Part shown: positions 9,486 through 35,852 of the stretch, piece after piece
How the letters are laid out: each line of letters begins with the position of its first letter
Position numbering within the stretch: position 1 is the first letter of the stretch
Source of the DNA: a virus
Length of the DNA: 42,795 nucleotides
IMG/VR virus record: IMGVR_UViG_3300036768_001323
Location: 1-42,795 of that record
Reading direction: 5' to 3' (one strand)
Notes under the pieces: generated by a model
What the model was told of the DNA's origin: nothing
Database searches by the model: none
Seen by the model: only the letters and a program-made list of their open reading frames with translations
Made by a program: the position numbers and the translations under genes

Positions 9486-9512
9486 TAAAGACGGTATGAT
9501 TAATTCCGATAC
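9486..9512 (+). promoter_or_regulatory. Sigma-28-like promoter upstream of MazG-like gene
   Basis: TAAAGACG, an 11-nt spacer, then TCCGATAC. The FliA consensus is TAAAGTTT-N11-GCCGATAA, so the -35 matches at 5/8 and the -10 at 6/8 with the exact spacer. The start codon is 25 nt downstream. It is a weaker match than the other copies. Confidence 0.45.
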
Positions 9513-9536
9513 GACCTTTGATATACAGGAGGGGTT

Positions 9537-9968
9537 ATGACAGGTGTGACAGTGAATTTCTTCAAAAACATCATTAAATTCAACAACATGTACAAAATGC
9601 CTAGCCTCAAAAAGGCAACTCGCGATGAAAAACGTGAGAGGATGGTGCAATTCCTTGATATCATTAGGGAAGAGCTTGAAGAGGGTGAAGAAATCCTGGA
9701 CGCCTACGATAATGGTGACTCTGAAGATCACATCGATACTATCAAGGCTGATCTTCTGTGTGACATTATTATCTATTGCGCCTCTGAGATGGAGCGATTG
9801 GGACTTCCTACAGAGGAAGTCCTTAATATCATTATGGAATCCAATTTTTCAAAAATGGGACCAGATGGTAAGCCAATCTATGACGAAAGAGGCAAATTAC
9901 TAAAAGGTCCTGGATATTGGCGTCCAGAGGCGGCTATCAGAATCCTACTGGAGAGTAAAAAGAAATGA
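9537..9968 (+). CDS. MazG-like / phosphoribosyl-ATP pyrophosphohydrolase-fold protein
   Basis: A 143-residue protein likely to hydrolyse nucleoside triphosphates to monophosphates. The C-terminal segment (about residues 100-135) contains ESNFSKMGPDGKPIYDERGK followed by LLKGPGYWRP. This is the typical ending of phage MazG/HisE-superfamily (all-alpha NTP pyrophosphatase) proteins. The acidic EELEEGEE and DLLCDIIIY segments fit the helical metal-binding core. The ATG at 9537 follows an ideal AGGAGGGG. It is the first gene of the plus-strand operon leading to the dNMP kinase, consistent with nucleotide pool control. Its stop overlaps the next start by four bases. Confidence 0.7.
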   Translation: MTGVTVNFFKNIIKFNNMYKMPSLKKATRDEKRERMVQFLDIIREELEEGEEILDAYDNGDSEDHIDTIKADLLCDIIIYCASEMERLGLPTEEVLNIIMESNFSKMGPDGKPIYDERGKLLKGPGYWRPEAAIRILLESKKK

Positions 9969-10200
9969 ACTACGATATTGTCAACTTTCTTAATCATAAA
10001 TTCAGACAGCCTTTGTCACACAGAAAGCACTCAGAGGCTTATGAAAAGCCTACCACTATCGTGATGTCAGGCCTTCCAACTATGGAGTCACTCATCACAG
10101 ATATGGCTGGTTTGGCTATCAACATTGATACTACCTATCAGTTTCTGTTTGGCTTCTCTATCTGTCAACCCGAGGATCAGTTTATCAGCCGAGACCGTAA
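9965..10200 (+). pseudogene. 5' part of a small gene split by the TnpB element
   Basis: The gene starts at ATG 9965 overlapping the upstream stop (ATGA). It reads through a natural-looking protein up to about QPEDQFISRDRN, and then runs into non-homologous element sequence at about 10200. The matching 3' part lies at 11453-11528. Joining 10200 to 11453 restores one frame of 103 codons ending in VVGFRKN and a stop, 14 nt before the kinase start. The intact protein is unknown. The join point is accurate only to a few bases. Confidence 0.65.
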
Positions 10201-10341
10201 TACTCCAGCCATAACCTGCCCCAGGTCAGTGAGGAGAAAGACAGTTTTGGCTGTAGATACAAGGACTTCAGCTATCTCCCATAATCGGGGTTGACAGAGG
10301 TCGGGTATTCGGTTATATCTATCGAAGATACCGGAGGGAGT

Positions 10342-11436
10342 ATGTTCCTGACCTACCGCTATAGGCTCAAAGATGGCAACCAGCGAAATCAGTTAAAAAA
10401 ACTTGCTGGTCAGGTTAATTTCGTTTGGAACTTCTCGAACGAAATCATTCGTGAAAACTGGCGTCGCTCGCGAAAATACACCAGTAAAAACGATCTGCAC
10501 GCCCTGACAAAGGGCGCTTCCAAGGAACTTGATATAAATTCCCAGACTATTCAGGCGGTTGCCTATGAGGTTTTGCTCAGGACTCAGAAGGCCAAAAAGA
10601 GAATCCGCTTTCGCACTGGACGGAAAAACCTTGGCTGGGTACCATTCAATGGCCAGACGGCCAAATATTGCGGTGACTATATCACCTATAATGGTTTCAA
10701 ACTGAGGCTTTGGCAACACAGAAAACTGCCGGCAGGGTCTGTGATCAAGACCGGATCTTTTTCTGAAGACTCGCGTGGGCGCTGGTATCTGAACCTAACT
10801 ATCGAAGTGGCGGATGAAGCTCTGATGCTGCCTTTGGCTCCCAACTATGATGTCGGGATTGATCCCGGTACAAAAACGGTCCTGACAACTTCCGATGGCG
10901 AAAAATTCGAGCGCGCGAACCTGACGCGAGATTATGAGGAAAAACTGGCCAAAGCCCAGCGGCACAGAAAAAAGCGCCAGGCCAGGTCCATTCACGCAAA
11001 GATCAAGAATAAGCGTCAGGATTGGAATCATAAGGCTTCTCATAGCCTCTCCAAGCGATATAACACGATCTATTTTGGTGATGCCGATTCAAGCAAGCTG
11101 GCCCAAACCAGGATGGCCAAAGGCGTTCTGGATGCAGGCTGGTATCAGATATTCACATTCCTCCAATATAAGTCCCTGAGGCGTGGAGGGATCGTGCTCA
11201 AAGTGAGCGAAAAATTCTCGACTGTCACTTGCTCGGCTTGTCTCTCACGATGCGGCCCGAGTGGACTAAGTGGGTTGAGTATAAGAGAGTGGGCTTGTAA
11301 GACGTGTGGAGCGGTACACGATCGTGACCACAATGCTGCCAAGAACATTCTCCGTTTCGGACGTGAAACGCTGAGGGAAGAGACGGTTTCGTTTTCTCCC
11401 AAGGGAAGCTCCAGCTATAGCGCGATCAGCGTTTAG
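10342..11436 (+). CDS. tnpB: TnpB-family RNA-guided nuclease (IS605 OrfB)
   Basis: The start ATG 10342 follows GGAGGGAG, giving 364 aa; the ORF continues upstream without a better site. N-terminal helical OrfB domain, then RuvC-I VGIDPGTK (Asp174), a zinc ribbon with Cys297/Cys300 and Cys319/Cys322, and RuvC-III HDRDHNAAKNIL (Asp327/Asp329). The usual RuvC-II Glu is not where expected: the equivalent strand reads IYFGDADSSKL (residues 243-253). A conserved-looking Glu290 sits in KVSEKFST just before the zinc ribbon, which suits TnpB subgroups with a rearranged catalytic Glu. It probably cuts DNA with a guide from the element's right end. No TnpA is present, so movement would need a helper. 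Confidence 0.9.
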   Translation: MFLTYRYRLKDGNQRNQLKKLAGQVNFVWNFSNEIIRENWRRSRKYTSKNDLHALTKGASKELDINSQTIQAVAYEVLLRTQKAKKRIRFRTGRKNLGWVPFNGQTAKYCGDYITYNGFKLRLWQHRKLPAGSVIKTGSFSEDSRGRWYLNLTIEVADEALMLPLAPNYDVGIDPGTKTVLTTSDGEKFERANLTRDYEEKLAKAQRHRKKRQARSIHAKIKNKRQDWNHKASHSLSKRYNTIYFGDADSSKLAQTRMAKGVLDAGWYQIFTFLQYKSLRRGGIVLKVSEKFSTVTCSACLSRCGPSGLSGLSIREWACKTCGAVHDRDHNAAKNILRFGRETLREETVSFSPKGSSSYSAISV

Positions 11437-11452
11437 TTGGGGAGGACGTCAC
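11384..11452 (+). ncRNA. Probable 3' portion of the TnpB omega-RNA scaffold
   Basis: Overlaps the 3' end of tnpB and ends at the element's right end. The strong hairpin (CTCCAGCTA.. paired with ..TTTAGTTGGGGAG) is retained in the second copy at 24803-24871, with base changes that keep pairing (wobble to Watson-Crick). In this family such 3'-end transcripts guide TnpB. The 5' end of the RNA cannot be placed from sequence alone. Confidence 0.5.
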
Positions 11453-11528
11453 CTCTGCTGATCATACAGTCAGGATTCGATACACAGATGGAAAGAATCC
11501 GAAGGTTGTTGGATTCAGAAAAAACTAA
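11453..11528 (+). pseudogene. 3' part of the small gene split by the TnpB element
   Basis: Reads SADHTVRIRYTDGKNP then KVVGFRKN and a stop, in frame with the 5' part at 9965-10200 once the element is removed. There is no start or ribosome site of its own, so it is probably not translated now. As the sequence just outside the right end it would also be the guide region of the omega-RNA. Confidence 0.6.
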
Positions 11529-11542
11529 TACTGAGGTATTCA

Positions 11543-13174
11543 ATGTCAAAAGCAAAAGTCATCCTGATATCTGGCAAGCAAGGCTCTGGCAAGTGCCTTA
11601 AGGCTGGAACATTAGTTAAAACACCAACCGGGTCAAAAAAAATAGAAGATTTAATGATTGGCGACGAGGTTTATGGCTACAACTCAGACCAAACGGTGTC
11701 TAAGTGTGAGGTGACTGATGTTCATAAAAATGGTATTAAAAAAGTCGTAGATCTGAGTTGGTCGGATAAGACTTTGGTATCAGCTACCATCGACCACCGT
11801 TTCATGTCATACAACTTCAAAACAAAAATCAAAAAAGAAAAAGCCATTGCTGATTTTAATACTAAGGATATGCTGTTGCAGACTTTTATTAAAATACCCG
11901 GAGGAAACAAAGATGTTCCAGAAGCCTATGCCATAGGTGCCCTATTAGGGGATGGATGCTGCACCATCAACGGCGTTGTTATTTCAAGCAGTGATGAGTC
12001 GGTGGTTAAAAAAGTTGCAAATTCAATCGGTGCGGAAGGATACAAAAAACTACACGAAAAAAACTTTAACTGGAGAATACAGTCACCAAGTCGCCTTGAA
12101 TACTACAACAAGTGGTGCAAGGGGTTAAAAGCACATGAAAAAATATTAGATATCAATGAAGTAAAATCATGGAATAGACAATCTCAATTAGATCTCTTGG
12201 CTGGATTGATTGATACGGATGGGTGCGTCAGGATGAGAAAAAGAGGATTGCTAACCATATCAATCGGAATGCAAGCTAAGGTTGTTATCGACGCAGTAAA
12301 AACACTTCTTTTGGATTTATTTCAATTTGACGCTAAAATATATATTGACAATAGGCCTAAATATAAAAATGGACCTGTATATATCATAAGGATAGGTCAA
12401 AATAAATACACCCAATCTATTTTAAGAGAGCTTCCGACTGTCTGCGAAAGAAAAAAATGGAAAGATGAGTACGAAGACTTAGCTGGCCGATCTAATAAAA
12501 ACCCCAGCGGGGTTATGTTTACCGTGTCAGAAGCTTATGATGCTGAAACTTATGATATTTCAATCAACAATGATACAAATTTGTATCTTTTGGCTAATGG
12601 TTTTATAACACATAACTCTACAACAGCCAGCCAACTTCAGAAAACCATTATTGAATCTGGATTAACCCCAGTCACCCTCAAGTTCGCTGACGTGATCTAT
12701 AAAATGCACGATGCCGCTTTGGCGGTGGCAGCTGATTACGGCATACCAGTTCTCAAAAAAGAAGGAGCTATGCTTCAGTGGTTTGGTACAGAATGGGGTC
12801 GGGAAACCAAGGGTCAGGATGTTTGGGTCAACGCTGTACGCCACAAAATAATGAAGACTATTGAAACCTCAACAAAGCCCGATAGTCTCGTGTTTATCAT
12901 TGATGACTGCAGATTCGTCAATGAGTTCAGAGGGTTCGATGATCTTGAAGAAAGTGGGCTTGTTGATGTGATTCGGGTGCGGCTTGAAGCCCCTGAAGAG
13001 GAACGCAAGTCTCGTGCCGATTCTTGGCGTACCGCAACTGACCACATATCAGAGACAGATCTTGATGCATACGCTGCATCAGGATTGTTTGATCTTTACT
13101 TTCAAACCGGCAAAGATGGGCTGCAAACAAGCTACATTGTTTCAGAAATTCTTCACGCCATAGATCGCGAGTAA
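11543..13174 (+). CDS. Deoxynucleoside monophosphate kinase interrupted by an intein
   Basis: A 543-residue precursor. The exteins (residues 1-17 and 359-543) join to give a 202-residue P-loop kinase whose Walker A, GKQGSGK|STT, is split precisely before the serine. The C-extein has features of phage T4 gp1-like dNMP kinases, including FADVIYKMH, a lid-like LQWFGTEWGRE segment, FIIDDCRF and the VIRVRLEAPEEERKSR motif. The product would phosphorylate dNMPs to dNDPs, complementing the RNR and MazG-like enzymes. ATG 11543 lies 14 nt after the split gene. A strong terminator follows at 13197. The kinase can work only after splicing because the intein separates Lys from Ser in the P-loop. Confidence 0.85.
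   Translation: MSKAKVILISGKQGSGKCLKAGTLVKTPTGSKKIEDLMIGDEVYGYNSDQTVSKCEVTDVHKNGIKKVVDLSWSDKTLVSATIDHRFMSYNFKTKIKKEKAIADFNTKDMLLQTFIKIPGGNKDVPEAYAIGALLGDGCCTINGVVISSSDESVVKKVANSIGAEGYKKLHEKNFNWRIQSPSRLEYYNKWCKGLKAHEKILDINEVKSWNRQSQLDLLAGLIDTDGCVRMRKRGLLTISIGMQAKVVIDAVKTLLLDLFQFDAKIYIDNRPKYKNGPVYIIRIGQNKYTQSILRELPTVCERKKWKDEYEDLAGRSNKNPSGVMFTVSEAYDAETYDISINNDTNLYLLANGFITHNSTTASQLQKTIIESGLTPVTLKFADVIYKMHDAALAVAADYGIPVLKKEGAMLQWFGTEWGRETKGQDVWVNAVRHKIMKTIETSTKPDSLVFIIDDCRFVNEFRGFDDLEESGLVDVIRVRLEAPEEERKSRADSWRTATDHISETDLDAYAASGLFDLYFQTGKDGLQTSYIVSEILHAIDRE
11594..12616 (+). other. Intein with LAGLIDADG homing endonuclease (341 aa)
   Basis: Self-splicing insert starting with Cys (residue 18 of the precursor, CLKAGTLVKTPTG) and ending in ANGFITHN before the extein Ser. 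These are the canonical N-terminal Cys and C-terminal His-Asn of class 1 inteins. Block B is represented by SATIDHRF. Two LAGLIDADG motifs are present: YAIGALLGDGC and LLAGLIDTDGC. Both acidic catalytic residues are intact, so the endonuclease may be active. Insertion in the P-loop is a well-known favoured intein site, because it is highly conserved and essential. Confidence 0.95.
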
Positions 13175-13196
13175 ACGTCTTTCAGATTTTCCTTTG

Positions 13197-13231: not shown

Positions 13232-13258
13232 TTAAGTTCCTGCCAAACTGGCCGATAA
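13232..13258 (+). promoter_or_regulatory. Sigma-28-like promoter upstream of lipoprotein gene
   Basis: TTAAGTTC, an 11-nt spacer, then GCCGATAA. The -10 is a perfect match to the FliA consensus and the spacer is exact. It lies between a terminator and the lipoprotein start, 48 nt before the ATG. Confidence 0.65.
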
Positions 13259-13305: not shown

Positions 13306-14370
13306 ATGTTCGGGTTGTTACGTTACTGTTTTTTCTTAGTGTTTTTGGTAAGTTGTGGGACAGGTGAGGGTACATGCGGCCTAGACGCTGAGTGCGCTGC
13401 ACAAAAGCAGGCCCAAAAAGACGCAGCGGCAGGGATGGTACAGGACTTTGTGATCCGAGGTTCAGTCAATTCTGCCTTCGCTCTTACTGTTGACGGCCAG
13501 GACTATGACGACATCGAATCGTACTTCACAGCAGAGAGTGCCCGCCTCCCTTCCAAAGTTAAAGATGCCGGGTATGAAGGTTACACTGTCCGTTTTGACG
13601 CGGCTATTGGCTTTAATGACCTAACCCAGGGCATGACGGTCTATATCGCCGGTAAGGAAAAACGTGGCTACCAAACCAAAACCCTGATTGCCAAAAACGA
13701 TACCTTTGCGGCAAAACTGCCAGCAGAAGCTGCGGGGGATGTCTATCAGATCAAAGCCAACAAGCGAATCGGGATCATCCTCACCAAAGGTTCCGAAATC
13801 AAGAAATTCTGCTATAACTTTGCAGCAGTTGACCTCGAAGTACCATACGAAATGGTTGACGACCCAATAATCCTTTCAAACTTCAAATCGAGTTTGACCA
13901 CTTATGAATGTCAGCAAGATGCTGGGTCGGACAGCCTGAAAGTTCCCGAAAACTCTGACAAACCAACCGAATATACTACCACAAAAGCGACCACAGCCAA
14001 GGTCTTTATCCACGACAGTCTCCGAAATCAAATTAAGCCGGGTATGACTGTGCTAGCTCTTAACTATATCTTGGGTGATATAGATTACAAAACAGGCGAT
14101 CCCGGTATCCACGATAGACCAGTGGGTGAAATGCACGCCTCCGAGGGATACCAAGTAGTAGGGTTCAATTACCATGAGACATCAGGTATTTGCGAAGCCG
14201 AGGTTAGCACGAGCATCGCCACTGGTGACTGCTATTACATCTACGACTGGAGCAAAACTATCATCTATCAGCAAGGCATCCGACTCGAATATTTGGCTCC
14301 AGGCGAATCATGGCCAAGTCTTGAAGAGGCTAAGGCTATAGCCAAGGAAAATCTGAAGTACAAGAAATGA
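13306..14370 (+). CDS. Phage-encoded lipoprotein, 354 aa
   Basis: Unknown function. The N-terminus has a hydrophobic signal segment ending in FLVSC (Cys at about residue 17), a lipobox, so the mature protein would be acylated and anchored in a membrane, with the rest periplasmic or on the surface. The next residues are Gly/Thr/Cys-rich, then a charged Lys/Gln stretch, then a beta-rich body with paired cysteines. Phage lipoproteins often act in superinfection exclusion or change the host envelope; here that is inference only. It is a single-gene unit: sigma-28-like promoter upstream, strong terminator at 14402 downstream. ATG 13306 follows AAAGGAG. Confidence 0.75.
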   Translation: MFGLLRYCFFLVFLVSCGTGEGTCGLDAECAAQKQAQKDAAAGMVQDFVIRGSVNSAFALTVDGQDYDDIESYFTAESARLPSKVKDAGYEGYTVRFDAAIGFNDLTQGMTVYIAGKEKRGYQTKTLIAKNDTFAAKLPAEAAGDVYQIKANKRIGIILTKGSEIKKFCYNFAAVDLEVPYEMVDDPIILSNFKSSLTTYECQQDAGSDSLKVPENSDKPTEYTTTKATTAKVFIHDSLRNQIKPGMTVLALNYILGDIDYKTGDPGIHDRPVGEMHASEGYQVVGFNYHETSGICEAEVSTSIATGDCYYIYDWSKTIIYQQGIRLEYLAPGESWPSLEEAKAIAKENLKYKK

Positions 14371-14429: not shown

Positions 14430-14457
14430 TTAAGTTTATAGAGAGCACGACCGATAA
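14430..14457 (+). promoter_or_regulatory. Sigma-28-like promoter upstream of small-gene operon
   Basis: TTAAGTTT, a 12-nt spacer, then ACCGATAA: -35 7/8 and -10 7/8 to the FliA consensus. It begins directly after the T-run of the preceding terminator and is 20 nt before the next ATG. Confidence 0.65.
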
Positions 14458-14477: not shown

Positions 14478-14609
14478 ATGAGCAACATCAATCAAATAAT
14501 GATACTCGGCAAAGCAATGAACAAAGCAGAGAAAAACAGCAAAAAAAACAAAAGCGTGCCAAAGCTAACACCAGAGCAACTCAGGGCCAAATTTTATGTT
14601 GTTAGGTAA
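14478..14609 (+). CDS. Small basic protein, 43 aa
   Basis: Starts at ATG 14478 with a perfect AGGAGG ribosome site 5 nt upstream. The product MSNINQIMILGKAMNKAE.. is Lys/Asn-rich and not recognised. It sits directly behind a sigma-28-like promoter, which supports expression. Its last 14 nt overlap the following membrane-protein ORF. Confidence 0.6.
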   Translation: MSNINQIMILGKAMNKAEKNSKKNKSVPKLTPEQLRAKFYVVR

Positions 14610-15149: not shown

Positions 15150-16538
15150 TTATCTTTTTCTGAATATAAACCGTATTTTGCCACAATCCCAAACTCTTGA
15201 TAACCCATCAAGGAGAGAGTGTTCATACTCAGTCATACCTTCTGGAGTATTGACCTTTTTCTTTTGCCGGGATTGTTTAGACACGACCTTGCATTGCTTA
15301 TTTGTGTCAATATAGAAATAATCAGGTGGCAAAACGGCATCCTTCTCCCATCCAGCTTTAAGATACCCATTACCCTCCGACCATCTCAGGTCACACCAAG
15401 AGATGATATCCTCATTGAAATGCTTTGATGCGTGGCGGGATAGACGAGACAAGCCGCCTACAACTGAGGTGTTAGGTAGAGTGACGAATCTCTGCAGTAC
15501 CCACCCATCCTTCCTGTGATGTCTATTGAATGCAGCCACAGAAACAAGAGTGCCCTCGAAAAATAAACCCAATGAATACGCAGGTCTCTTTTTTAGCGGC
15601 TGAATGTGAAATTTATTAATGAATTCCAAAGCTGCATCCGGTGATACTTCCGACACCTCCGTCTTTCTGGCGTGGATAATATTATCCGATCCAACAAGTA
15701 TCGATCGAATTCTACTTTTCACCTGCTCCTTACGCTCGAACCACTCATGCTCAAAAACATGAATTAGGTCTATGCCCTCGTTTTTGGCCCTAGTTGTTTT
15801 GCCGAGATGGTAGTCAGATCCTTTATCATTAGCCTCTGAGTGCCAGTAAAGCCCATTATATTCAATACCCTTACTTATATCGGGCATATAGATATCAATT
15901 TCGTAACCATTAGTTTTTCTGGTATGCCATTTTATACCTAACTCATCAATAAAAGAACTTAACTCCGCCTGTCCTATTGACGTATATTTAGGCGGAATAG
16001 CGCTCATAAGCATCATTTTTTTAATCTGCATAGTCCTCGGAGCTCCGAGGGGAGGTCTTACTATAATAGTATTTTCAGAATCAGATAAATCACCCTCTAT
16101 AGAGACGCCAAGAATCTCCGCCTTTTTTAGTATCACATCGGTAGTGTATTTTTTTCTATCTTTGTTAAATTTTGTAACACCGGCCCTAACTGACTCCCCC
16201 GTTATATGGATGAGGTTCTTAGCTTTCCAAGAATCGGAGTGGACCAGTGGCACGCCTTTTTGACTCGCAGCTAGCTCTCTGAGGTGCTCAATATGCTTTT
16301 TTTTCGCCTCCTCATCTCTTGCATCCCACGACTTTCTCTGAGAATCTCTCTGTTTATTTTTGTATTTTTCTGTCGATCTGGACGTTGGTTCGATGCCGCA
16401 TTTTGACAGGAATCTTTTGTAGGTTACTTCTGAGTATTGCGGATTCAGTTCTGCTATCTCGCGAGTAGTTAACCCAGCGGCTCTTTCAGATATTATTTTT
16501 TCTTGCAGTTCTTTGTCTTTTTTAAAACACAAATTCAC
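15150..16538 (-). CDS. Vsr-like (EDxHD-type) homing endonuclease 1
   Basis: A free-standing homing endonuclease of about 462 aa. Core at about residues 210-290: YEIDIYMPDISKGIEYNGLYWHSE, then YHLGKTTRAKNEGIDLIHVFEHEW. This Glu-Asp plus His nuclease pattern is characteristic of homing enzymes related to very-short-patch-repair (Vsr) endonucleases. The N-terminal part is helical and basic, suited to DNA binding. The C-terminal domain has SVVGGLSRLSRHASK and CDLRWSEGNGYLKAGW motifs also found in the two other copies. GTG 16538 with AAGG at 6 nt is the better start; an in-frame TTG at 16544 is possible. It sits directly after the sheath gene, so the sheath or neighbouring DNA may be its target. 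Confidence 0.85.
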   Translation of the reverse strand: MNLCFKKDKELQEKIISERAAGLTTREIAELNPQYSEVTYKRFLSKCGIEPTSRSTEKYKNKQRDSQRKSWDARDEEAKKKHIEHLRELAASQKGVPLVHSDSWKAKNLIHITGESVRAGVTKFNKDRKKYTTDVILKKAEILGVSIEGDLSDSENTIIVRPPLGAPRTMQIKKMMLMSAIPPKYTSIGQAELSSFIDELGIKWHTRKTNGYEIDIYMPDISKGIEYNGLYWHSEANDKGSDYHLGKTTRAKNEGIDLIHVFEHEWFERKEQVKSRIRSILVGSDNIIHARKTEVSEVSPDAALEFINKFHIQPLKKRPAYSLGLFFEGTLVSVAAFNRHHRKDGWVLQRFVTLPNTSVVGGLSRLSRHASKHFNEDIISWCDLRWSEGNGYLKAGWEKDAVLPPDYFYIDTNKQCKVVSKQSRQKKKVNTPEGMTEYEHSLLDGLSRVWDCGKIRFIFRKR

Positions 16539-16573
16539 ACCCAACCTTCTGTATCATGATAGGTTAAAAAGAA

Positions 16574-19433: not shown

Positions 19434-19469
19434 ATAAGTCTCCTGATTTATATAGTCGGTATACGGCTC

Positions 19470-19479
19470 TATTTTATCA
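19470..19479 (-). promoter_or_regulatory. Late-type promoter motif upstream of tail sheath
   Basis: Minus-strand TGATAAAATA, 37-46 nt before the sheath ATG, followed by AGAGCCGTAT. A near-perfect copy of the window's repeated late motif. Confidence 0.65.
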
Positions 19480-19510
19480 CGGAATGGAATTCCCTGGTAT
19501 TATAAAGAAA

Positions 19511-20720: not shown

Positions 20721-20847
20721 GAGATGGCTCCATAAAAGTAACAAACTAACACAACACCTTATTATACCCTTAGGGACAATAATAGTCTAAAGTTATTTGT
20801 AGGGTTTGTGAAGAGCACGGATAGCGGCACTCTACGTCACTTTTAGC

Positions 20848-21139: not shown

Positions 21140-21247
21140 AGGTGTGCCAGCTTCACCAGACAGCATTTGCTGTCCATAACCCTCAAACGCTATCCAGGGT
21201 GACCGTTTCCGGGCCTGGTCGCTAAGGCTAGATCCCCTGGCACACCT
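21140..21247 (-). ncRNA. Structured RNA of unknown family (about 108 nt)
   Basis: Bounded by a perfect 11-bp inverted repeat (AGGTGTGCCAG / CTGGCACACCT). Inside, on the minus strand, are a stem CCAGG..CCTGG enclosing CCGGAAACGG (GAAA tetraloop), then a pairing around AUAGC..UUAU, and a perfect 6-bp hairpin GACAGC-AAAT-GCTGTC. This gives a closed multi-branch structure. A GCCGATAA -10 box at 21251-21258 would start transcription at the first base of the outer stem. It has no tRNA T-loop, SRP or RNase P signature. There is no significant ORF. Confidence 0.55.
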
Positions 21248-21250
21248 CTA

Positions 21251-21277
21251 TTATCGGCAAATTCAGGAAATAATCAA
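21251..21277 (-). promoter_or_regulatory. Sigma-28-like promoter for the structured RNA
   Basis: The minus-strand -10 GCCGATAA is perfect to the FliA consensus, with an 11-nt spacer and a poor -35 (TTGATTAT, 4/8). The predicted start, 4-7 nt after the -10, falls at the first base of the 11-bp stem of the RNA. Confidence 0.5.
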
Positions 21278-22123: not shown

Positions 22124-22160
22124 AAAAGCCTCAAAAAGAGTTAATCACCGTGACTTACGT

Positions 22161-22170
22161 CATTTTACCA
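22161..22170 (-). promoter_or_regulatory. Late-type promoter motif upstream of exported protease
   Basis: Minus-strand TGGTAAAATG, 38-47 nt before the start at 22123. Confidence 0.5.
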
Positions 22171-22262
22171 TTAGATTGGCTAAGCGGCCAAAACAAAAGG
22201 ATTGACCGGGTTTCCCCTGTGTGGGATAAAGGCAGTGGCATTAATTTCTGGTAAGAGGTTTC

Positions 22263-24801: not shown

Positions 24802-24802
24802 G

Positions 24803-24871
24803 CGGTTTCGCTTTCTCCCAAGGGAAGCTCCAGCTATAACGCGATCAGCGTTTAGCTGGGGAGGACGTCAC
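24803..24871 (+). mobile_element. Truncated right end of a TnpB element
   Basis: 69 bp corresponding to 11384-11452: the last codons of tnpB, the omega-RNA hairpin (CTCCAGCTATAACGC / GCGTTTAGCTGGGGAG) and the GGACGTCAC end. Substitutions keep or improve pairing in the stem. Its terminal TCA provides the stop codon of the convergent homing endonuclease 2. Confidence 0.85.
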
Positions 24872-26439
24872 GGTTTATATGGGTAAACAAACCTAATCTT
24901 TCCGCAATCGTAGACACGAAACCACTCCTTTTCTGGGGAGACTTCCTCCTCTTCATACAAAGCTCTACTCTTAGTACCTCGACCGTTAGTGTAAAAATAA
25001 TCAGGCCCATCTATACGATCAATCAACCAGCCAGACGAGACGTATCCACTCCCGGATGACCACCTCCTATCACACCAAGATACCAGCAATGACTTGGTCA
25101 TATTGCTTGCTTTCTTGGATAATCTAGACAAACCACCCACAACTGACACGCCGTCAGCGGCACAAAAACGCTGCACCTCAAAACGCTCTTTATCAAATCT
25201 ACCACGGCCAACTGACATGACCGCAACCAATCGGTCATTTGGGTCGTAAATACCTAAAGAGATTATAGAGCTTCTTGGAGAACCCTGAATATGATACCTA
25301 TCAAGAAAACCTTTGGCGGTTGAATGCTCAATCTCTTCTACCCTACATTGCCGAGCACCTATGATATAGGTATTTTTCATGAATTTGGATCTTAGGAATG
25401 ACTTTACCTGCTCTTCACGATCTCTCCATTCATGTTCAAAAACATGATATAGCTTGATACCACGCTCAGCAGCTAAGGTAGTTTTGTTTAGATGGTACAT
25501 AGTCTCTTTATAGAGATCAGAATGCCAATAAAGCCCATTATATTCAATACCTATACCAAGCTTCGGTATTAATATATCAATTTCATAACCACCAATCCTT
25601 GATTTTTCGGTCTGTAGATCAAGTGACTCAATCCAATTCCTCATCTGGGTTTCACCCCTTGAGGTAAAAATGCTTGGATTATTAATAAAGAACTTTTTGG
25701 CCTCCTCTGATTTCTGCCAATTATCTACTCCGTATCTTTCCATCATAGTTAGCATAGTTTTTTTCAAAGCAGCTTCAACTCTGTTTGAATCAGCCCACAT
25801 TTCTGCAAGAGCGAGGGCTCTTTTTTGATAATATTTGCCGTTAGGGTCGTTTCTTTCTTGGCGGTAACTCTCGCTTAGTAGAAGCTTTCTCTCTACACCA
25901 GCTGGTGACTTCCAGTAATTAATTGAGGCAGTTTTTAGATGTGAGTTATCTTTTGATAAGCCATTTTGCCGTGCTTTATCAATAAAAGCCTGGGTATGTA
26001 CGGCAATGTCGTGAGCAGCTCTAACACGCTCGTTGTGCATTGGATTACCGCCAAATTTTTCGTAAGCCGCAGCCATGGCGTTTTTTGCCATCTCTTTGCG
26101 CTTTTCTTCAGGAATATTTTCCAGCCGCTTTTTTTGAGCGTCACTAATTTCTTTTTTTGTTTTTTCTGAGTGGGTTTTGCCGTAGAATGGGTTCTTCTCG
26201 CCAGTTCTTTTTTTTGCCGCTTCGCTAATCTTCTTTTTTTTGCATTCGTGACAACAATATCCATAACCTTTTGTTTTTAAAGTAAAATCTGCATTTCCGA
26301 CACTCACCTCTCCGATCTGGCCACAATTACTGCAACTGACTTTGATTCTCTCAACCGATCTCAAGGGTCTTTCTGTTGTATCCAAAGCTCTTACGGAAGT
26401 AAGCCATTCTGTCGTACGAATTTTTATCTTTTGTGCCAT
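24868..26439 (-). CDS. Vsr-like (EDxHD-type) homing endonuclease 2
   Basis: A 523-residue relative of homing endonuclease 1. N-terminal zinc-finger-like segment with CSNCGQIGEV and CCHECKKKK (about residues 35-67), then Lys/Glu-rich helical repeats that suit DNA binding. The nuclease core is YEIDILIPKLGIGIEYNGLY, then YHLNKTTLAAERGIKLYHVF (about residues 283-340). The C-terminal domain has SVVGGLSRLSKKAS and SWCDRRWSSGSGY. ATG 26439 with AAGGAGG. A sigma-28-like promoter is at 26467-26494. The stop codon is made by the end of the TnpB-element remnant, so the last residues (VYPYKP) may differ from the ancestral C-terminus. Confidence 0.88.
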   Translation of the reverse strand: MAQKIKIRTTEWLTSVRALDTTERPLRSVERIKVSCSNCGQIGEVSVGNADFTLKTKGYGYCCHECKKKKISEAAKKRTGEKNPFYGKTHSEKTKKEISDAQKKRLENIPEEKRKEMAKNAMAAAYEKFGGNPMHNERVRAAHDIAVHTQAFIDKARQNGLSKDNSHLKTASINYWKSPAGVERKLLLSESYRQERNDPNGKYYQKRALALAEMWADSNRVEAALKKTMLTMMERYGVDNWQKSEEAKKFFINNPSIFTSRGETQMRNWIESLDLQTEKSRIGGYEIDILIPKLGIGIEYNGLYWHSDLYKETMYHLNKTTLAAERGIKLYHVFEHEWRDREEQVKSFLRSKFMKNTYIIGARQCRVEEIEHSTAKGFLDRYHIQGSPRSSIISLGIYDPNDRLVAVMSVGRGRFDKERFEVQRFCAADGVSVVGGLSRLSKKASNMTKSLLVSWCDRRWSSGSGYVSSGWLIDRIDGPDYFYTNGRGTKSRALYEEEEVSPEKEWFRVYDCGKIRFVYPYKP

Positions 26440-26466: not shown

Positions 26467-26494
26467 ATATCGGAGTAAATGTCGATAAACTTTA
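26467..26494 (-). promoter_or_regulatory. Sigma-28-like promoter upstream of homing endonuclease 2
   Basis: Minus-strand TAAAGTTT (perfect -35), a 12-nt spacer, then TCCGATAT (-10, 6/8). The ATG is 27 nt downstream, and it lies just outside the capsid terminator. Confidence 0.65.
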
Positions 26495-28103: not shown

Positions 28104-28113
28104 GATTTTATCA
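28104..28113 (-). promoter_or_regulatory. Late-type promoter motif, capsid proximal
   Basis: Minus-strand TGATAAAATC, 42-51 nt before the capsid ATG, followed by ATAACCGTAT. The trailing CCGTAT also follows the sheath copy. Confidence 0.6.
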
Positions 28114-28143
28114 CAAGATTCTAATCGCTCGGAATCGTATGGC

Positions 28144-28153
28144 TATTTTATCA
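28144..28153 (-). promoter_or_regulatory. Late-type promoter motif, capsid distal
   Basis: Minus-strand TGATAAAATA followed by GCCATACG, 82-91 nt before the capsid ATG. The tandem pair may explain high capsid output. Confidence 0.6.
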
Positions 28154-28247
28154 CGCCCAAAGATTACAAAAAGACCGCCAAAAGACTATCCATTAGTGTG
28201 TTTCTATGGTATGATTAGCTTGCGTGGTATGAAATAAGGAATATAAA

Positions 28248-29675
28248 GTGACCAACAAAAAAGATACAACTATTCAAAAATATTGCAAATTTTGCAATGG
28301 TCTATTTTCCATAGAATCAGGCCACTGGAAAGTATCAAAAAATGCCTTCCTAGAGTGTAAAGCTCATGCAAAAGAAGTCAGGGCTGCATCGAGACGTGCA
28401 AAAAACCTTGAATCTTTTGGGACCGAAACTCCACTCACCGATCCCTCCTTTAAAGCTTCCGTGAAAAGCAAAAGAGAGGCTACAATGAAGGAGAGATATG
28501 GATCATCTAACGCTATGCACATAGCAGATATGAAAGACAGGCAGATGTCCACGCTAATGGAGAATTATGGCGTAACATCACCAGCAAAATCCGCAGAGAT
28601 TCGGGAAAAGATAGAGAAGACCTGCCTTGAGAAGTACGGCAAAAAGACCAACCTACAGATTCCGAGTGTCGTCAAAAAGGCTTCGGAATCAAAAAAACTC
28701 AATCTTTCTATAATCCTATCTGATGGCAGATATCTGAGAGACCTCTGCGATACCCTTGGCATATCAAAGGCGTGGGCCTACAAAGTTTATCGACACTCCG
28801 GTGAAAAAGTCTTATTCGACTATATCGAGAATTACGAAAAAAGAACATCGTACTTAGAGCTTCGGTTTATTGAGTTGATGAAGGGCTTCAAGGAGCTGAG
28901 CCTGTTCAATAGGCAGCCCTGTGACAGTGTCCAATATCGCCCCGACTTTAGAATCGAACACGAAGGGAAAGTTCTTTATGTAAATGTAGATGGTCTTTAT
29001 TGGCACGGTGAGCCTAGAGTGGGGGATATTGAATACCATCAGAAAATGAGACTTTCGTTTGAGCAGTCCGGCTTAAGACTCATGCAGTTCGGAGGTGACG
29101 AGATAACCAGCAGTCCTGAGATAGTGAAATCCATAGTCATGAATTACTTTGGATGTGTTCAAAAAGTATATGCACGAAAATGCGAAATCGTTACATTAAC
29201 AAAGAAAGAAAGTGATTCTTTTTTCAGAGATAACCACCTTATGGGGTCTTTCCCGGCAGGTAGTTGTTATGGATTAATAAATGGAACGGATCTTGCAGCG
29301 GCTATATGCGTCAGAAGCAAGGGAGATTCTCTGCACATAGAGAGATTCTGCAACAAAAAAGACATAAGTGTTGTGGGTGGGTTTAGCAGGTTACTTGCTC
29401 ATGCAATAAAAGAAAAAAGACCTCGCAGAGTTGTGTCATTTTGTGACATGAGATATGCCACAGGCGACAGTTATGTGTCGTGCGGTTTTAAGGAAGTTTC
29501 CTGTTCCTTGTCTTTTAGATGGTCGAATGGAGTAAACACCTACCCAAGATCTAGTTGCGTCGCTAATATGGATGATAGAGGACTAACAGAAACACAGCAC
29601 GCAAACGAAAAAAAATGGTTTAGGGTGTATGATGCCGGGCAAAAAAAATTCATAAAAGAGTTGACAAATGCATAA
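28248..29675 (+). CDS. Vsr-like homing endonuclease 3
   Basis: A 475-residue divergent relative of the other two. N-terminal Zn-like CKFCNGLFS pair, Lys-rich helices, repeated YGV/YGS segments typical of NUMOD-like DNA-binding modules, then the nuclease core YRPDFRIEHEG then LYVNVDGLYWHGE and EYHQKMRLSF (about residues 230-275). The C-terminal domain has SVVGGFSRLLAHA and SFCDMRYATGDSY. GTG start at 28248 with AAGGA. An extended -10 (TGGTATGAT, 28208-28216) may be its promoter. It lies next to the capsid gene, a usual position for phage homing genes. Confidence 0.85.
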   Translation: MTNKKDTTIQKYCKFCNGLFSIESGHWKVSKNAFLECKAHAKEVRAASRRAKNLESFGTETPLTDPSFKASVKSKREATMKERYGSSNAMHIADMKDRQMSTLMENYGVTSPAKSAEIREKIEKTCLEKYGKKTNLQIPSVVKKASESKKLNLSIILSDGRYLRDLCDTLGISKAWAYKVYRHSGEKVLFDYIENYEKRTSYLELRFIELMKGFKELSLFNRQPCDSVQYRPDFRIEHEGKVLYVNVDGLYWHGEPRVGDIEYHQKMRLSFEQSGLRLMQFGGDEITSSPEIVKSIVMNYFGCVQKVYARKCEIVTLTKKESDSFFRDNHLMGSFPAGSCYGLINGTDLAAAICVRSKGDSLHIERFCNKKDISVVGGFSRLLAHAIKEKRPRRVVSFCDMRYATGDSYVSCGFKEVSCSLSFRWSNGVNTYPRSSCVANMDDRGLTETQHANEKKWFRVYDAGQKKFIKELTNA

Positions 29676-30099: not shown

Positions 30100-30174
30100 A
30101 AAAAATTTTTTAACTATTGACAATGACTACAGAATATAGTAGTCTTAATGATTCGGCAATCATTAGGAGTAGTT

Positions 30175-31956
30175 ATGTTTTTGTCTGGGGATTCTTACGG
30201 TAAGCTCACACTAATCAACAATATATGGATGCTTGAAGGCAAACCTGCCACAATCGACTTGTTCAAGAAAATCTTCACCAACTGGGTACACATACACCCA
30301 ACAAATCACAAAACATATCTTCAGGGTTATATCCACTCTGAGGTTTCGTATAACGAAATCAAACTGTTCAATCCCGGTATCAAACACAGTCCAGCAATTT
30401 GCAAAGATTTAGTGTGGTTTATGCAAAGATACCCGTTAGTTATGTCAACAGAAGACAAAAAAGCACTGGACGATACCGTTGCCGAAATGGGTGCAAAACA
30501 AAGAAAGATCGAACTCATATTCAATGAGTCGTTCAGTGGACCAAGATTGAATTTGGCTATTCCCCTAAGGAAATACCAAGAGCAAGCGGTCAGTTTCTTT
30601 CTTGAAACGAATAGACTGTTACTGGCTGACGATGTGGGCCTTGGCAAAACCGCTACGTCAATAGGACCTATGGCGCTACCCGAGTATCGGCCAGCGCTGG
30701 TTATTGCTCAACCGCACCTCCTTATTCAGTGGGAGCTTGAGATCAAGAGATTCCTACCAAACCTCAAAACCCATATCATCAAAGGAACCAAACCATATGA
30801 CCTACCTGATGTGGACGTGATCATCACATCATACACAAGATTGGCTGGCTGGAAGGATGTATTGGGTGGTTTTGCTCGATATGTTGTCTTTGATGAGATT
30901 CAAGAATTGCGGCACAATACCAGTCAAAAGTACGCAGCAGCTTTCAAAATCACAGAAAAAGCAACCAAAAAACTTGGACTAAGCGCAACACCGCTTTTCA
31001 ACTATGGTGTCGAGATTTTCAACGTAATGAACATAATCCATCCGGGGTGTCTTGGCGAGCTCAAAGAATTCCAAGATGCTTGGTGCGAGCCTTATGACAA
31101 AAGAGTTGTGATGGACCCGGCAAGACTTGGTGTTTATCTTCGTCAATCCCATATGATGCTCAGAAGAACAAGGGAAGATGTTAGAAAAGAGCTGCCACCT
31201 ATTAACAGGATTGTTCATGTACTTGAGCACGATGCTGCCGAGGCTGCTCGAGTCGAAAAGACTGCTATTCAGTTGGCTATCGATATGATGACAGCCAATA
31301 AAGAGGATAAGGGCGAAGCCGCTTTGAAGCTTGATGGGTTTTTGAGACAGGCAACCGGACTTATGAAAGCCAAGTCAGTGGCGGCGTGGGTCAGGGTTTT
31401 ACTCGAAGCCGGTGAAAAGGTTTTGCTCCTTGGTTGGCATCGCGAGGTTTACGATATTTGGCTGAAAGAATTGAGCCAATATGACCCGGTCATGTTTACT
31501 GGTAGCGAAACAGCCGCTCAAAAAAATCAATCGAAGGAAGCTTTTGTTGAAGGTAAATCTCCATTGATGATCATGAGTCTAAGATCAGGGGCTGGCCTGA
31601 ATGATCTTCAAAGAGTGTGTAGTCATATAGTGTTTGGTGAGCTTGACTGGAGTCCGGCAATTCATTACCAAGCTGAGGGTCGATTGAATCGCGATGAACT
31701 GATTGGGTCTGTCACGTCGGCATACCTTATCTTAAACACCGGTTCAGATCCGACCATGATGGAAGTCTTGGCTATCAAAAAAGGCCAAATGGACGGAGTA
31801 ATCAATGGTGACACCGGGTATGAAGAGCCTCAAATCAGTAATGCTGACCGTATCATGAAGATGGCACAAGATCTTATTAACAAAAGCAAAAACAGCCACA
31901 AACCAAATGTGCACAAAGAAGATAGTAATATTATTACTCTTTTCCCTCAGCCCTAA
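30175..31956 (+). CDS. SNF2-type superfamily 2 helicase/translocase
   Basis: A 593-residue ATP-dependent DNA translocase or helicase. Walker A ADDVGLGKTA at residues 151-160, motif II VVFDEIQEL (DEIQ at 240-243 rather than DEAH), motif III LSATP at 269-273. The C-terminal RecA lobe ends with motif VI YQAEGRLNRDE. The spacing and DVGLGKT sequence are typical of SNF2/RapA-like phage helicases with a roughly 130-residue N-terminal extension. ATG 30175 with AGGAG is chosen over an in-frame ATG at 30148 that lacks a ribosome site. It probably acts in DNA repair, recombination or replication restart with the DnaQ-like exonuclease downstream. Confidence 0.88.
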   Translation: MFLSGDSYGKLTLINNIWMLEGKPATIDLFKKIFTNWVHIHPTNHKTYLQGYIHSEVSYNEIKLFNPGIKHSPAICKDLVWFMQRYPLVMSTEDKKALDDTVAEMGAKQRKIELIFNESFSGPRLNLAIPLRKYQEQAVSFFLETNRLLLADDVGLGKTATSIGPMALPEYRPALVIAQPHLLIQWELEIKRFLPNLKTHIIKGTKPYDLPDVDVIITSYTRLAGWKDVLGGFARYVVFDEIQELRHNTSQKYAAAFKITEKATKKLGLSATPLFNYGVEIFNVMNIIHPGCLGELKEFQDAWCEPYDKRVVMDPARLGVYLRQSHMMLRRTREDVRKELPPINRIVHVLEHDAAEAARVEKTAIQLAIDMMTANKEDKGEAALKLDGFLRQATGLMKAKSVAAWVRVLLEAGEKVLLLGWHREVYDIWLKELSQYDPVMFTGSETAAQKNQSKEAFVEGKSPLMIMSLRSGAGLNDLQRVCSHIVFGELDWSPAIHYQAEGRLNRDELIGSVTSAYLILNTGSDPTMMEVLAIKKGQMDGVINGDTGYEEPQISNADRIMKMAQDLINKSKNSHKPNVHKEDSNIITLFPQP

Positions 31957-31980
31957 AGTTTTTTGAGGCGGCTACGATAA
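31954..31980 (+). promoter_or_regulatory. Sigma-28-like promoter upstream of 32017 gene cluster
   Basis: TAAAGTTT (perfect -35), exact 11-nt spacer, then TACGATAA (-10, 6/8). It overlaps the helicase stop codon. The first ATG is 37 nt downstream. Confidence 0.7.
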
Positions 31981-32016: not shown

Positions 32017-32232
32017 ATGAAAACACTTCAAGTCAACGACTCAACACTGATTAAGCAAATTGCCTACATCTGCCTTGGCGATGCAGGTCGCGTTCAATTG
32101 ACATACTCAAATTACCTTCAAAAGGAGAATAATAATGCTGCTTGGGTGGAGATGTGGATGCTGTGGCGATACATACCCAAAAGGGAACAACAGCGCCAAG
32201 CAATGGTCAGAATGTCCATACGAGTGTTATAA
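32017..32232 (+). CDS. Hypothetical protein, 71 aa
   Basis: ATG 32017 follows CGGAG and a sigma-28-like promoter. The N-terminal 40 residues (STLIKQIAYICLGDAGRVQL) have a strand pattern loosely like a KTSC domain, but this is not a firm match. The last 98 nt overlap the zinc-ribbon gene in another frame, and that part has poorer composition, so the true C-terminus may be shortened by a frameshift or be out-of-frame read-on. Confidence 0.5.
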   Translation: MKTLQVNDSTLIKQIAYICLGDAGRVQLTYSNYLQKENNNAAWVEMWMLWRYIPKREQQRQAMVRMSIRVL

Positions 32233-32395
32233 CTGCGGCAGCGATACCTTTTTGAGGGTTGAGGATGATGAACCCGAACCCACCAAACTGCCGTACAAAA
32301 CTCCCAATTCAGACGGAACTAGGTATCGATGGGGCGGTGAAGGCGATGGCAATCTTTTCTCTGCGGATTTTTTAATTAACCTTGAATCAGACTAG
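32135..32395 (+). CDS. Small zinc-ribbon protein, 86 aa
   Basis: Two Cys pairs, CGCCGDTYPKG and CPYECYNCGSD (residues 8-36), form a zinc-ribbon or rubredoxin-like knuckle. An acidic Pro-rich linker and a C-terminal segment follow. ATG 32135 has AAGGAG at ideal spacing, supporting this start inside the previous ORF. Function unknown. Confidence 0.65.
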   Translation: MLLGWRCGCCGDTYPKGNNSAKQWSECPYECYNCGSDTFLRVEDDEPEPTKLPYKTPNSDGTRYRWGGEGDGNLFSADFLINLESD

Positions 32396-32403
32396 GGGGC
32401 GTT

Positions 32404-32763
32404 ATGAAAATCGAAGCAAAAAACCAAACTGAAACAAACCGCATCATTAGCATGGTTCTCTTTCGTGTTTTTAAAGAGAAAGCCCAGGAGTCCAACCCTC
32501 TAAAAATGAGAGTCCCTGATGGTGCGATTGGCAGAATCATAGGGTTGGACCCTGCCGATACATCGCACTGGAAAAAAGGCAAGAAAACAGTTCTAAACGC
32601 TGTTCATTTGAGGCGGCTAATCAAGCAGCTTGGTGTTGACGATGCGGTGGTTAACGATATTCTTGATGGAAACATACCAGAAAGATTTGAACGAGAAGTT
32701 AATTTATGGGAATTGCGCAACAAAGGGAAGAAAACCCAAATCAAACAAAAGGAGCCAGCATGA
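32404..32763 (+). CDS. Putative helix-turn-helix DNA-binding protein, 119 aa
   Basis: Residues 40-78 (DGAIGRIIGLDPADTSHWKK then GKKTVLNAVHLRRLIKQLGV) resemble a Cro/CI-type (XRE) helix-turn-helix: helix, turn with D-x-S-x-W-K-x-G-K, then a scaffold helix. The Lys-rich C-terminus may contact DNA. It overlaps the DnaQ-like gene by four bases (ATGA), so both are made together. It could be the repressor or activator of this operon. Confidence 0.6.
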   Translation: MKIEAKNQTETNRIISMVLFRVFKEKAQESNPLKMRVPDGAIGRIIGLDPADTSHWKKGKKTVLNAVHLRRLIKQLGVDDAVVNDILDGNIPERFEREVNLWELRNKGKKTQIKQKEPA

Positions 32764-33341
32764 AATACGTCAGTTTGGACATCGAAACATCAAGTCTTGA
32801 GCCGGCTTTTGAGCACATACTTGGGTTATCCATGGTGCTCGAAGACTCTGATCACCCCGAGGTTCCAGTCGAAGAACTACCTCACATGACGGTGCTAATA
32901 CGTCAGCCAGTCATCAGAGGACAAGCTTACGCCTTAGCTATGAACGCTTGGATTCTTGACTTTATTTCTGGCAGACGAAAACCATGCCCATATCCAATAA
33001 TTCTCCCGAGTGAGCTCCGGGCTATGATAATTGGGTTTTTGTACCAAAACCTTCCACAATGTTTCAAGCCGGGTCTTAATTTACCGAGCGGCGTGGTCTT
33101 GGCTGGCAAAAATGTTGCCGGTTTTGATTACCAATTCTTACCACCAGATATCAAAAGTTTTTTTGCACACAGGGTGCTTGATCCTGGAAGTGTTTTTGTT
33201 GACTGGACCAAAGACAAACCCTTGAGTCTTGATGAGATTCTTCAATCTCAGGGATTTAGCAAAACGGTATCTCACGATATGCTTGATGACGCTCGGGATG
33301 TCATCCGTACGTTAAGGAGAAGTTATCCTACCAAAGAGTAG
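32760..33341 (+). CDS. DnaQ-like 3'-5' exonuclease (DEDDh type)
   Basis: A 193-residue exonuclease. Exo I SLDIETSSLEP (Asp7, Glu9), Exo II AGKNVAGFDYQFL (Asp in the middle), Exo III SHDMLDDARDVIRTL (His then Asp four or five residues later). This set defines DEDDh-type proofreading or single-strand exonucleases. ATG 32760 with AGGAG; a longer in-frame reading to 32706 overlaps the HTH gene and lacks a ribosome site. It may proofread for or process DNA with the SNF2-type helicase. The last 14 nt overlap the convergent gene at 33328. Confidence 0.85.
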   Translation: MKYVSLDIETSSLEPAFEHILGLSMVLEDSDHPEVPVEELPHMTVLIRQPVIRGQAYALAMNAWILDFISGRRKPCPYPIILPSELRAMIIGFLYQNLPQCFKPGLNLPSGVVLAGKNVAGFDYQFLPPDIKSFFAHRVLDPGSVFVDWTKDKPLSLDEILQSQGFSKTVSHDMLDDARDVIRTLRRSYPTKE

Positions 33342-33692: not shown

Positions 33693-33697
33693 GTCTA

Positions 33698-33901: not shown

Positions 33902-33943
33902 ACACGTAAAGAATCTATCCGCCGAACAAGATTCTACTTTCAT
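33902..33943 (-). pseudogene. Separated 5' coding end of the 33328 gene
   Basis: Codes MKVESCSADRFFTC with a good ribosome site (GGGAGGTATCT before the ATG) and joins in frame to the body at 33582 if the element is excised. As it stands it would read into the element. Confidence 0.5.
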
Positions 33944-33994
33944 AGATACCTCCCAATCCATTGATTATGGATTAGAAAAAACAACAATCAATGC

Positions 33995-34022
33995 TAAAGT
34001 TATTTCGCGATAGTGCCGATAA
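33995..34022 (+). promoter_or_regulatory. Sigma-28-like promoter upstream of 34058 gene
   Basis: TAAAGTTA (-35, 7/8), 12-nt spacer, GCCGATAA (perfect -10). The ATG is 35 nt downstream. Confidence 0.7.
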
Positions 34023-34057
34023 ATCAATCATCACCATTACTATTAACAAGGTTTGGT

Positions 34058-34315
34058 ATGTCAAGTAAGTATACATACGAGGCAAAAGAAGTTCTTATAG
34101 AAAACATGCCGTGCTGGAAGGTTGAGATCTTCAGGGATGGTTGCGTCGTCAAATCTACCACCCTCATGAGCGAAGGCGGGTGCATCAAGTGGGCGGGTGA
34201 GCAGATAATGAGAATGCAGCGTGAGGATGTCCAAAGGACAACCCCAAACCTGCTTTCCTGGGTAGAAGAGACCTTTGGCAAAAAAGAAGGAATGAATTGT
34301 CAAGTGCCAAGATAA
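34058..34315 (+). CDS. Hypothetical protein, 85 aa
   Basis: Not recognised. ATG 34058 follows AAGG and a sigma-28-like promoter; an upstream in-frame reading to 34013 runs through that promoter and is rejected. A small soluble mixed alpha/beta protein with Trp and Cys residues. It converges with the head-connector-like gene, overlapping it by 16 nt. Confidence 0.7.
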   Translation: MSSKYTYEAKEVLIENMPCWKVEIFRDGCVVKSTTLMSEGGCIKWAGEQIMRMQREDVQRTTPNLLSWVEETFGKKEGMNCQVPR

Positions 34316-35148: not shown

Positions 35149-35169
35149 CTTAGGTAGTCCAATCTCTAA

Positions 35170-35601
35170 TTAGAATCCAGGGTCCGTCAACTTCTTAAAC
35201 ACAGACCAGTTAGCCAAAAACGTAGTACTTGTAGCACCTTCCGTGAGAACAAACTTAGCTGTTCCCGACACGATATCCTGGATGTTCTGGGAAGTCATGT
35301 CGATCCTCATAAGACTGCGATTGTTCGGGTCGATAATAGCAGTCTTAACAACATTTTTTGACGTGTTGGTCAAGGTTGGTGGCGGTGTATTGGTCAGGCT
35401 GATTAAGTCGGCTCTCTGGAAGGTCACCGTCATGGATGAGCCAGAGGCTGGGACATACGGTCGAGAACCCAATCCATCAACAATATAAAGCTGAAACCAC
35501 AAGGATTGGGCATTTGGGGACACAATCTCCCAACGGTTACTCGGAAGAACCGAGTAAAAATTTGGAGCGGAAATCATATCAATAGGAACAGCCTTGAACA
35601 T
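35170..35601 (-). CDS. Hypothetical virion protein, 143 aa
   Basis: Not recognised. A beta-rich Ser/Thr/Asn/Val composition, usual for small structural proteins, with no motif. ATG 35601 with AAGGG. It sits between connector-like and head genes on the same strand. Confidence 0.6.
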   Translation of the reverse strand: MFKAVPIDMISAPNFYSVLPSNRWEIVSPNAQSLWFQLYIVDGLGSRPYVPASGSSMTVTFQRADLISLTNTPPPTLTNTSKNVVKTAIIDPNNRSLMRIDMTSQNIQDIVSGTAKFVLTEGATSTTFLANWSVFKKLTDPGF

Positions 35602-35611
35602 CTCAATCCCT

Positions 35612-35803
35612 TTAGTATTTTAGCCCATAAGAGCGAATCACACTCTTATTTGCTTTTTCTCGCTCTTTCTTGAGTCGAGCTGCGTTCTCTGCATTACGAC
35701 GAATAGCATCTTTAAAAAAAGAATCCTGAGTTTCTTGTTTCTCTGTTTCTTGGCTGACTTCTTTGTTTTTACGGTCAATCAATTTGATTACATTGTTGCT
35801 CAT
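35612..35803 (-). CDS. Hypothetical protein, 63 aa
   Basis: Not recognised. A charged helical protein, basic at the C-terminal half (AARLKKEREKANKSVIRS). ATG 35803 with a perfect AGGAGG is preferred over a longer reading to 35836. A sigma-28-like promoter is at 35826-35852. Confidence 0.6.
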   Translation of the reverse strand: MSNNVIKLIDRKNKEVSQETEKQETQDSFFKDAIRRNAENAARLKKEREKANKSVIRSYGLKY

Positions 35804-35825
35804 AAATCCTCCTATGTTACAAAAA

Positions 35826-35852
35826 CTTATCGACAATCACACAGCAATCTTG
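35826..35852 (-). promoter_or_regulatory. Sigma-28-like promoter upstream of 35803 gene
   Basis: Minus-strand TCAAGATT (-35, 6/8), 11-nt spacer, GTCGATAA (-10, 7/8). The ATG is 23 nt downstream. Confidence 0.5.

Follow-up and report, generated by a model that had tools for sequence, protein, structure and literature searches.

Promoters in a phage fragment that match the flagellar sigma-28 consensus

Phages usually begin transcription on the main sigma factor of their host. Does the phage represented by IMG/VR record IMGVR_UViG_3300036768_001323 also place some of its genes behind promoters of the flagellar sigma factor, sigma-28 (FliA)? The complete record (42,795 bases), referred to here as the window, covers part of a larger virus, and an original prediction made from its letters had listed eight FliA-type sites. 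Most of that observation held up, and the evidence supports its main interpretation; what the motif does is something that we infer. The motif is in excess over chance, it stands before genes, it is conserved in related phages, and a separate late-type motif precedes the virion genes.

Box matches were scored out of 16 against T[A/T]AAGTTT/GCCGATAA. With spacers of 11–12 nt, seven sites match at least 14 of the 16 letters, versus 0.17 in dinucleotide shuffles, and three match at least 15, versus none. The excess is gone at spacers of 8–9, 14–15 and 16–17 nt (0–2 sites at 14/16 or better), and the consensus scan at this threshold finds five sites in 1.25 Mb of other large phages with a related ribonucleotide reductase (RNR), or 0.2 per 47 kb. 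Because circularity had to be avoided, an independent weight matrix was built from 20 sites of other phages only (G060, G066 and L325, described below), with the sites of the window excluded. At a cut-off of at least 16 bits, this matrix returns nine sites in 47 kb (the window plus 4.2 kb), versus 0.2 in shuffles (maximum of two in 200) and 0.37 per 47 kb in the 1.25 Mb of control phage DNA. The Poisson P for nine sites is ~1e-12 versus shuffles and 3e-10 versus control phages. The predicted sigma-28-type identity thus passed the matrix test against shuffled sequence, and the related phages agree with it.

Placement of the individual sites

All eight proposed positions were read, and five are strong, one is moderate (35853-) and two are weak (21277- and 9486). 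For the minus strand, the original prediction gave the low ends (26467, 35826 and 21251) of the sites designated here as 26494-, 35853- and 21277-. Six sites (13232, 14430, 31954, 33995, 26494- and 35853-) are retained, with three matching 15, two matching 14 and one matching 13 of 16 letters, within the range of 13–15 predicted for the best copies. These same six, out of the nine top-scoring sites, lie 20–47 nt before a Shine-Dalgarno start, as expected from the predicted distance of 20–50 nt, whereas the two weak sites score at chance level and are unsupported as promoters. The spacer of 11 or 12 nt claimed for all eight is as read, although it was a condition of the search.

The site at 13232..13258 (+; TTAAGTTC-N11-GCCGATAA; 15/16; 22.7 bits) stands 47 nt upstream of a Shine-Dalgarno sequence and ATG at 13306. 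The gene that begins there (13306..14370, +) encodes a putative lipoprotein of 354 amino acids, with a signal peptide and an LVSC-G lipobox read from the translation; it has no Pfam or PHROGs match, and a PDB search was empty. The top-scoring site of the window, at 14430..14457 (+; TTAAGTTT-N12-ACCGATAA; 15/16; 26.0 bits), lies 20 nt upstream of an AGGAGG-ATG start at 14478, which opens a 43-amino-acid open reading frame (ORF; 14478..14609, +) at the head of a run of small ORFs. On the minus strand, the site at 26467..26494 (TAAAGTTT-N12-TCCGATAT; 14/16; 19.0 bits) is 27 nt upstream of the ATG at 26439 of a homing-endonuclease-like gene (24868..26439, -; phrog_3339, NUMOD3). Sites were predicted to follow terminators often, and terminator-like hairpins do directly precede 13232, 14430 and 26494-, the last of them being the hairpin of the capsid gene.

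Two further plus-strand sites precede small ORFs. The first, at 31954..31980 (TAAAGTTT-N11-TACGATAA; 14/16; 18.7 bits), is 36 nt upstream of the ATG at 32017 and leads into a stretch (32017..33341, +) of small ORFs (71 and 119 amino acids) and then a gene resembling a DNA polymerase exonuclease subunit (32706–33341), while the other, at 33995..34022 (TAAAGTTA-N12-GCCGATAA; 15/16; 21.9 bits), is 35 nt upstream of the ATG at 34058 of an 85-amino-acid ORF (34058..34315, +). The moderate site at 35827..35853 (-; TCAAGATT-N11-GTCGATAA; 13/16; 16.6 bits) carries TCAAG, a frequent variant in the arrays of related phages. It lies 23 nt upstream of the ATG at 35803 of a 63-amino-acid ORF (35612..35803, -), whose start, MSNNVIKLIDRK, resembles by eye that of a FliA-preceded ORF, MSQSNVIKLNDRR, in the relative G060. 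None of the six FliA-preceded genes is recognisable as a virion gene.

The two remaining candidates were rejected. The site at 9486..9512 (+) matches 11 of 16 letters, scores below 6 bits on the independent matrix and overlaps a late-type motif on the opposite strand at 9485-. The site at 21251..21277 (-) has a perfect -10 box and a poor -35 box (TTGATTAT), and its 10.3 bits is a score expected several times by chance. It sits just upstream of a predicted structured RNA (21141..21246, -) located between a small ORF and a ClpP-like protease gene. This segment is closed by a 10-bp stem (GGTGTGCCAG/CTGGCACACC), has a fold z of -3.5, is matched in stability by none of 200 shuffles and belongs to no Rfam family.

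Promoter arrays in related phages

Relatives were drawn from among the matches listed in an IMG/VR scan for the exact 16-letter consensus; these include contigs with several sites, the number at 14/16 or better reaching at least 12 within 11 kb. Two of the contigs, G066 (117,954 bp) and G060 (78,422 bp), come from phages distantly related to that of the window, with a tail sheath 27–35% and a ClpP-like protease ~25% identical, and G066 also has a 69-amino-acid protein 73% identical to that of the window phage. Both carry one-strand arrays, of eight sites in G066 and ten in G060. A Shine-Dalgarno start follows every array site, and by count 10 of 10 sites in G060 and 9 of 9 in G066, versus ~25% of random positions; among the genes behind the arrays are rIIA, rIIB and small genes. 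The rIIA protein of G066 is 72% identical to that of G060 and 57% identical to that of a third contig, L325. Ahead of rIIA and rIIB, the promoters of these three contigs retain 15–16 of the 16 box letters, with spacers that vary. G066 is probably complete since it has an exact 122-bp terminal repeat. Neither G066 nor G060 gave a match to the FliA-family (TIGR02479) or Sigma70_r2 (PF04542) profile.

FliA-type sites were also seen on other viral contigs. One of these (L208; IMGVR_UViG_3300010392_003462) packs 12 sites of at least 14/16 into 11 kb, all of them followed by a small ORF and many with the -10 box GCCGATAT; no close relative was found among known phages, to which it shows hardly any similarity. 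Another, which looks unrelated (L152; IMGVR_UViG_3300044691_000458), has a site at 10665 (+) before a lipoprotein-like gene.

A separate motif before the virion genes

The virion genes of the window are preceded by a different motif, RTGNTAAAAT, which the original prediction missed. It occurs 12 times on the minus strand and not at all on the plus strand, versus about one copy per strand in shuffles (0.9 expected). Two copies (GTGATAAAATAG and GTGATAAAATCA; 28105..28154, -) stand before the major capsid gene (26557–28062), and single copies precede the tail sheath gene at 16611–19433 (GTGATAAAATAG; 19469..19480, -), a ClpP-like head protease gene at 21329–22123 (ATGGTAAAATGA; 22160..22171, -) and a gene for 1139 amino acids at 39–3458 (GTGGTAAAATAC; 3489..3500, -). 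More copies are located at 9485, 37052, 39007 and 42113 (all -), and G066 and G060 each have one as well, upstream of their sheath region. No FliA-type site reaches 12 bits in the 10 kb of tail genes that adjoin the window on its left. Since the virion genes have a motif of their own and these tail genes are free of FliA-type sites, the sigma-28-type sites belong to one gene class only. The sigma-28 set would thus be one arm of a two-class programme and not a whole regulon. A possible third class is seen in sigma-70-like promoters at 30148 (+; TTGACA...TATAGT), before the helicase gene, and at 28248 (+), before a homing endonuclease gene.

The phage and its probable host

Two near-identical contigs from one metagenome lengthen the window to the right by 4.2 kb and to the left by at least 10 kb, so that ~57 kb of the phage is seen. 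The window encodes a major capsid protein, a tail sheath, ClpP-like head proteases, a class Ia RNR and a helicase, together with three homing-endonuclease-like genes, an intein-bearing kinase-like gene and a TnpB. By several proteins the closest named phage is Myxococcus phage Mx1 (OR576727.2; RNR 57–68%, sheath ~30%, capsid 25% identity), and the window phage is probably a large contractile-tailed phage distantly related to it. A nucleotide search of the window against 50,697 phage records gave no match, nor did tblastn with the capsid and lipoprotein; no tRNAs were found in the window, and its Rfam scan was empty. Several neighbouring genes are of interest in their own right. The kinase-like gene (11543–13174, +) seems to contain an intein that carries a LAGLIDADG endonuclease, the three homing-endonuclease-like genes (15150–16544, -; 24868–26439, -; 28248–29675, +) are related (phrog_3339) and adjoin the sheath and capsid genes within 15 kb, and two different ClpP-like head-protease genes (20160–20744, - and 21329–22123, -) lie close together.

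The TnpB (IS605 OrfB) element (10291..11461, +) gives a lead to the host. Among 85,000 species genomes, TnpB has one close match, at 78% protein identity, in a metagenome-assembled genome (MAG) of the Oligoflexaceae, the next best being 43%. The part shared with this MAG is the 3' part of the element (window 11101–11461), which is 83.4% identical in nucleotides over 361 bp and has flanks in the MAG that look cellular by eye. A second copy of the element's right end, without an adjoining TnpB gene, lies at 24802–24871 and is 84% identical to the Oligoflexaceae fragment over 70 bp. The MAG contains flagellins and a FliA-like gene cut at a contig end. A relative of the capsid protein (E 2.5e-27, 26% identity) was found in one of 58 Bdellovibrionota genomes, on a phage contig in a genome of the MAG's class, and none that was convincing in 399 Pseudomonadota genomes, a difference that is suggestive only as a host pointer.

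In this phylum FliA acts as a global regulator of the attack phase. In Bdellovibrio bacteriovorus, TTAAG-N16-CCGATA is present in 66% of mapped attack-phase promoters (PMC3627812). The exact motif occurs 16–44 times in some genomes of the class of the Oligoflexaceae MAG versus zero or one for a reversed control (44 versus zero in one genome of the phylum), and by eye a lipoprotein signal starts 11 of ~25 motif-linked genes in Oligoflexia-class genomes, as at window 13306. We place the probable host within or close to Bdellovibrionota, an assignment that shares the probability given below for the explanation as a whole. The suggestion of a host in which sigma-28 is always or globally active fits this lead, to the extent that the host is correctly placed.

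Which sigma factor may read the sites

In the explanation that we favour, the phage would have two promoter classes. Its structural genes would use the phage-specific, T4-late-like motif RTGNTAAAAT, and several non-structural genes would use promoters that match the sigma-28 consensus, act early or in the middle of infection and are recognised by sigma-28 holoenzyme of the host. In a host whose FliA governs a broad programme, this would couple infection to the motile (attack) phase. We give this explanation, including a host in or near Bdellovibrionota and the relationship to Mx1, a joint probability of roughly 0.7. Its reader, early timing and host are what we infer from sequence. Host sigma-28 appears to be the simplest reader because the consensus, spacer and placement fit, because no sigma-28 gene was seen and because T4 expresses its rIIA and rIIB early. 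The original prediction had allowed either the host's factor or one of the phage's own, and dependence on the host's seems the better reading because no sigma-28 gene is found in the window, by profile search of an incomplete phage genome, or in the probably complete G066.

Several results weigh against this explanation. Only six sites precede genes of the window, and the other three of the nine top sites (4659-, 22469 and 23430), absent from the original list, lie within ORFs. The farther relatives L326 and L327 (rIIA 34–36% identical, with sheath homologues) are without such promoter sets, as are Bdellovibrio phage phi1422 (NC_019525) and a phage contig, C54, which comes from a genome of the host class and was expected to share them. 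Thus neither host group nor clade implies the trait, and its absence from C54, Mx1, L326 and L327 marks it as lineage-specific. The motif was not found upstream of the flagellin genes checked in the class of the Oligoflexaceae MAG, a result that covers only the plus strand of the loci and is not firm. The host link itself consists of a single fragment of a mobile element and a single, distant match to the capsid, both in MAGs. Finally, the ~57 kb seen is not the whole of the window phage, and a sigma factor of its own could be encoded in the remainder.

A sigma-28-like factor encoded by the phage in that unsequenced part, reading the sites as a middle class, is indeed the foremost alternative, and we consider it unlikely. 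Mx1, a relative, encodes a divergent sigma70 region-2 protein, and a factor like it could escape the profile search in G066. However, G066 has eight array promoters and no match to either sigma profile, Mx1 itself lacks any FliA-type site of 14/16 or better, and the late motif may already provide a target for a phage sigma factor. Somewhat more doubtful still is the idea that the sites are real but are merely a few host-type promoters gained with single cargo genes and having no regulon-level role. The small number of good sites in the window would suit it, as would their positions before small ORFs, a homing endonuclease gene and a lipoprotein gene, given the lipoproteins often linked to the motif in the Oligoflexia. 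Yet in the related phages the arrays of 8–10 sites stand ahead of core phage genes, rIIA and rIIB among them, and are kept across 57–72% protein identity. Chance or base composition could explain the two weak candidates and perhaps the three sites within ORFs, but the shuffle, control-phage and spacer tests rule it out as the cause of the whole set, and we give it a negligible probability.

Comparison with known systems

Bacterial FliA class 3 promoters (TAAAGTTT-N11-GCCGATAA) are like those described here in both boxes, in the spacer of 11–12 nt and in their position 20–50 nt before Shine-Dalgarno starts; they serve motility genes, whereas here the DNA and the genes are those of a phage. A programme of the T4 type employs the host sigma factor for early genes and gp55 for late promoters (TATAAATA). 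The likeness lies in a separate motif for virion genes and in the relatives' early-type set, which includes rIIA and rIIB. The differences are a flagellar sigma factor that would stand in place of sigma-70, the late motif RTGNTAAAAT, and the gp55-type sigma, of which no homologue was found in the window.

The attack-phase FliA motif of B. bacteriovorus (PMC3627812) is matched by the window sites at 13232 (N15) and 14430 (N16), and in related genomes it often precedes lipoprotein-like genes, like that at 13306. The published regulon is chromosomal, and the text consulted reports no use by phages. Mx1 shares RNR, sheath and capsid homologues with the window phage but differs in its sigma-like protein and its lack of sites. 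For phi1422, the host has a large FliA regulon, but this unrelated small myovirus has one site of 14/16 or better and no array. No paper on a phage sigma-28 regulon was found among openly licensed publications, as judged from titles and abstracts, which is not proof of novelty.

More broadly, we propose tentatively, and with less confidence than the explanation for the window phage, that early transcription may have been moved onto the host flagellar sigma factor in one group of large tailed phages whose hosts are predatory bacteria or relatives of these, with infection occurring only in, or timed by, the motile attack phase. If so, early-type genes behind flagellar sigma promoters would tie infection directly to a differentiated cell state, and arrays of sigma-28 promoters would provide a sequence signature for phages of motile or predatory bacteria in metagenomes.

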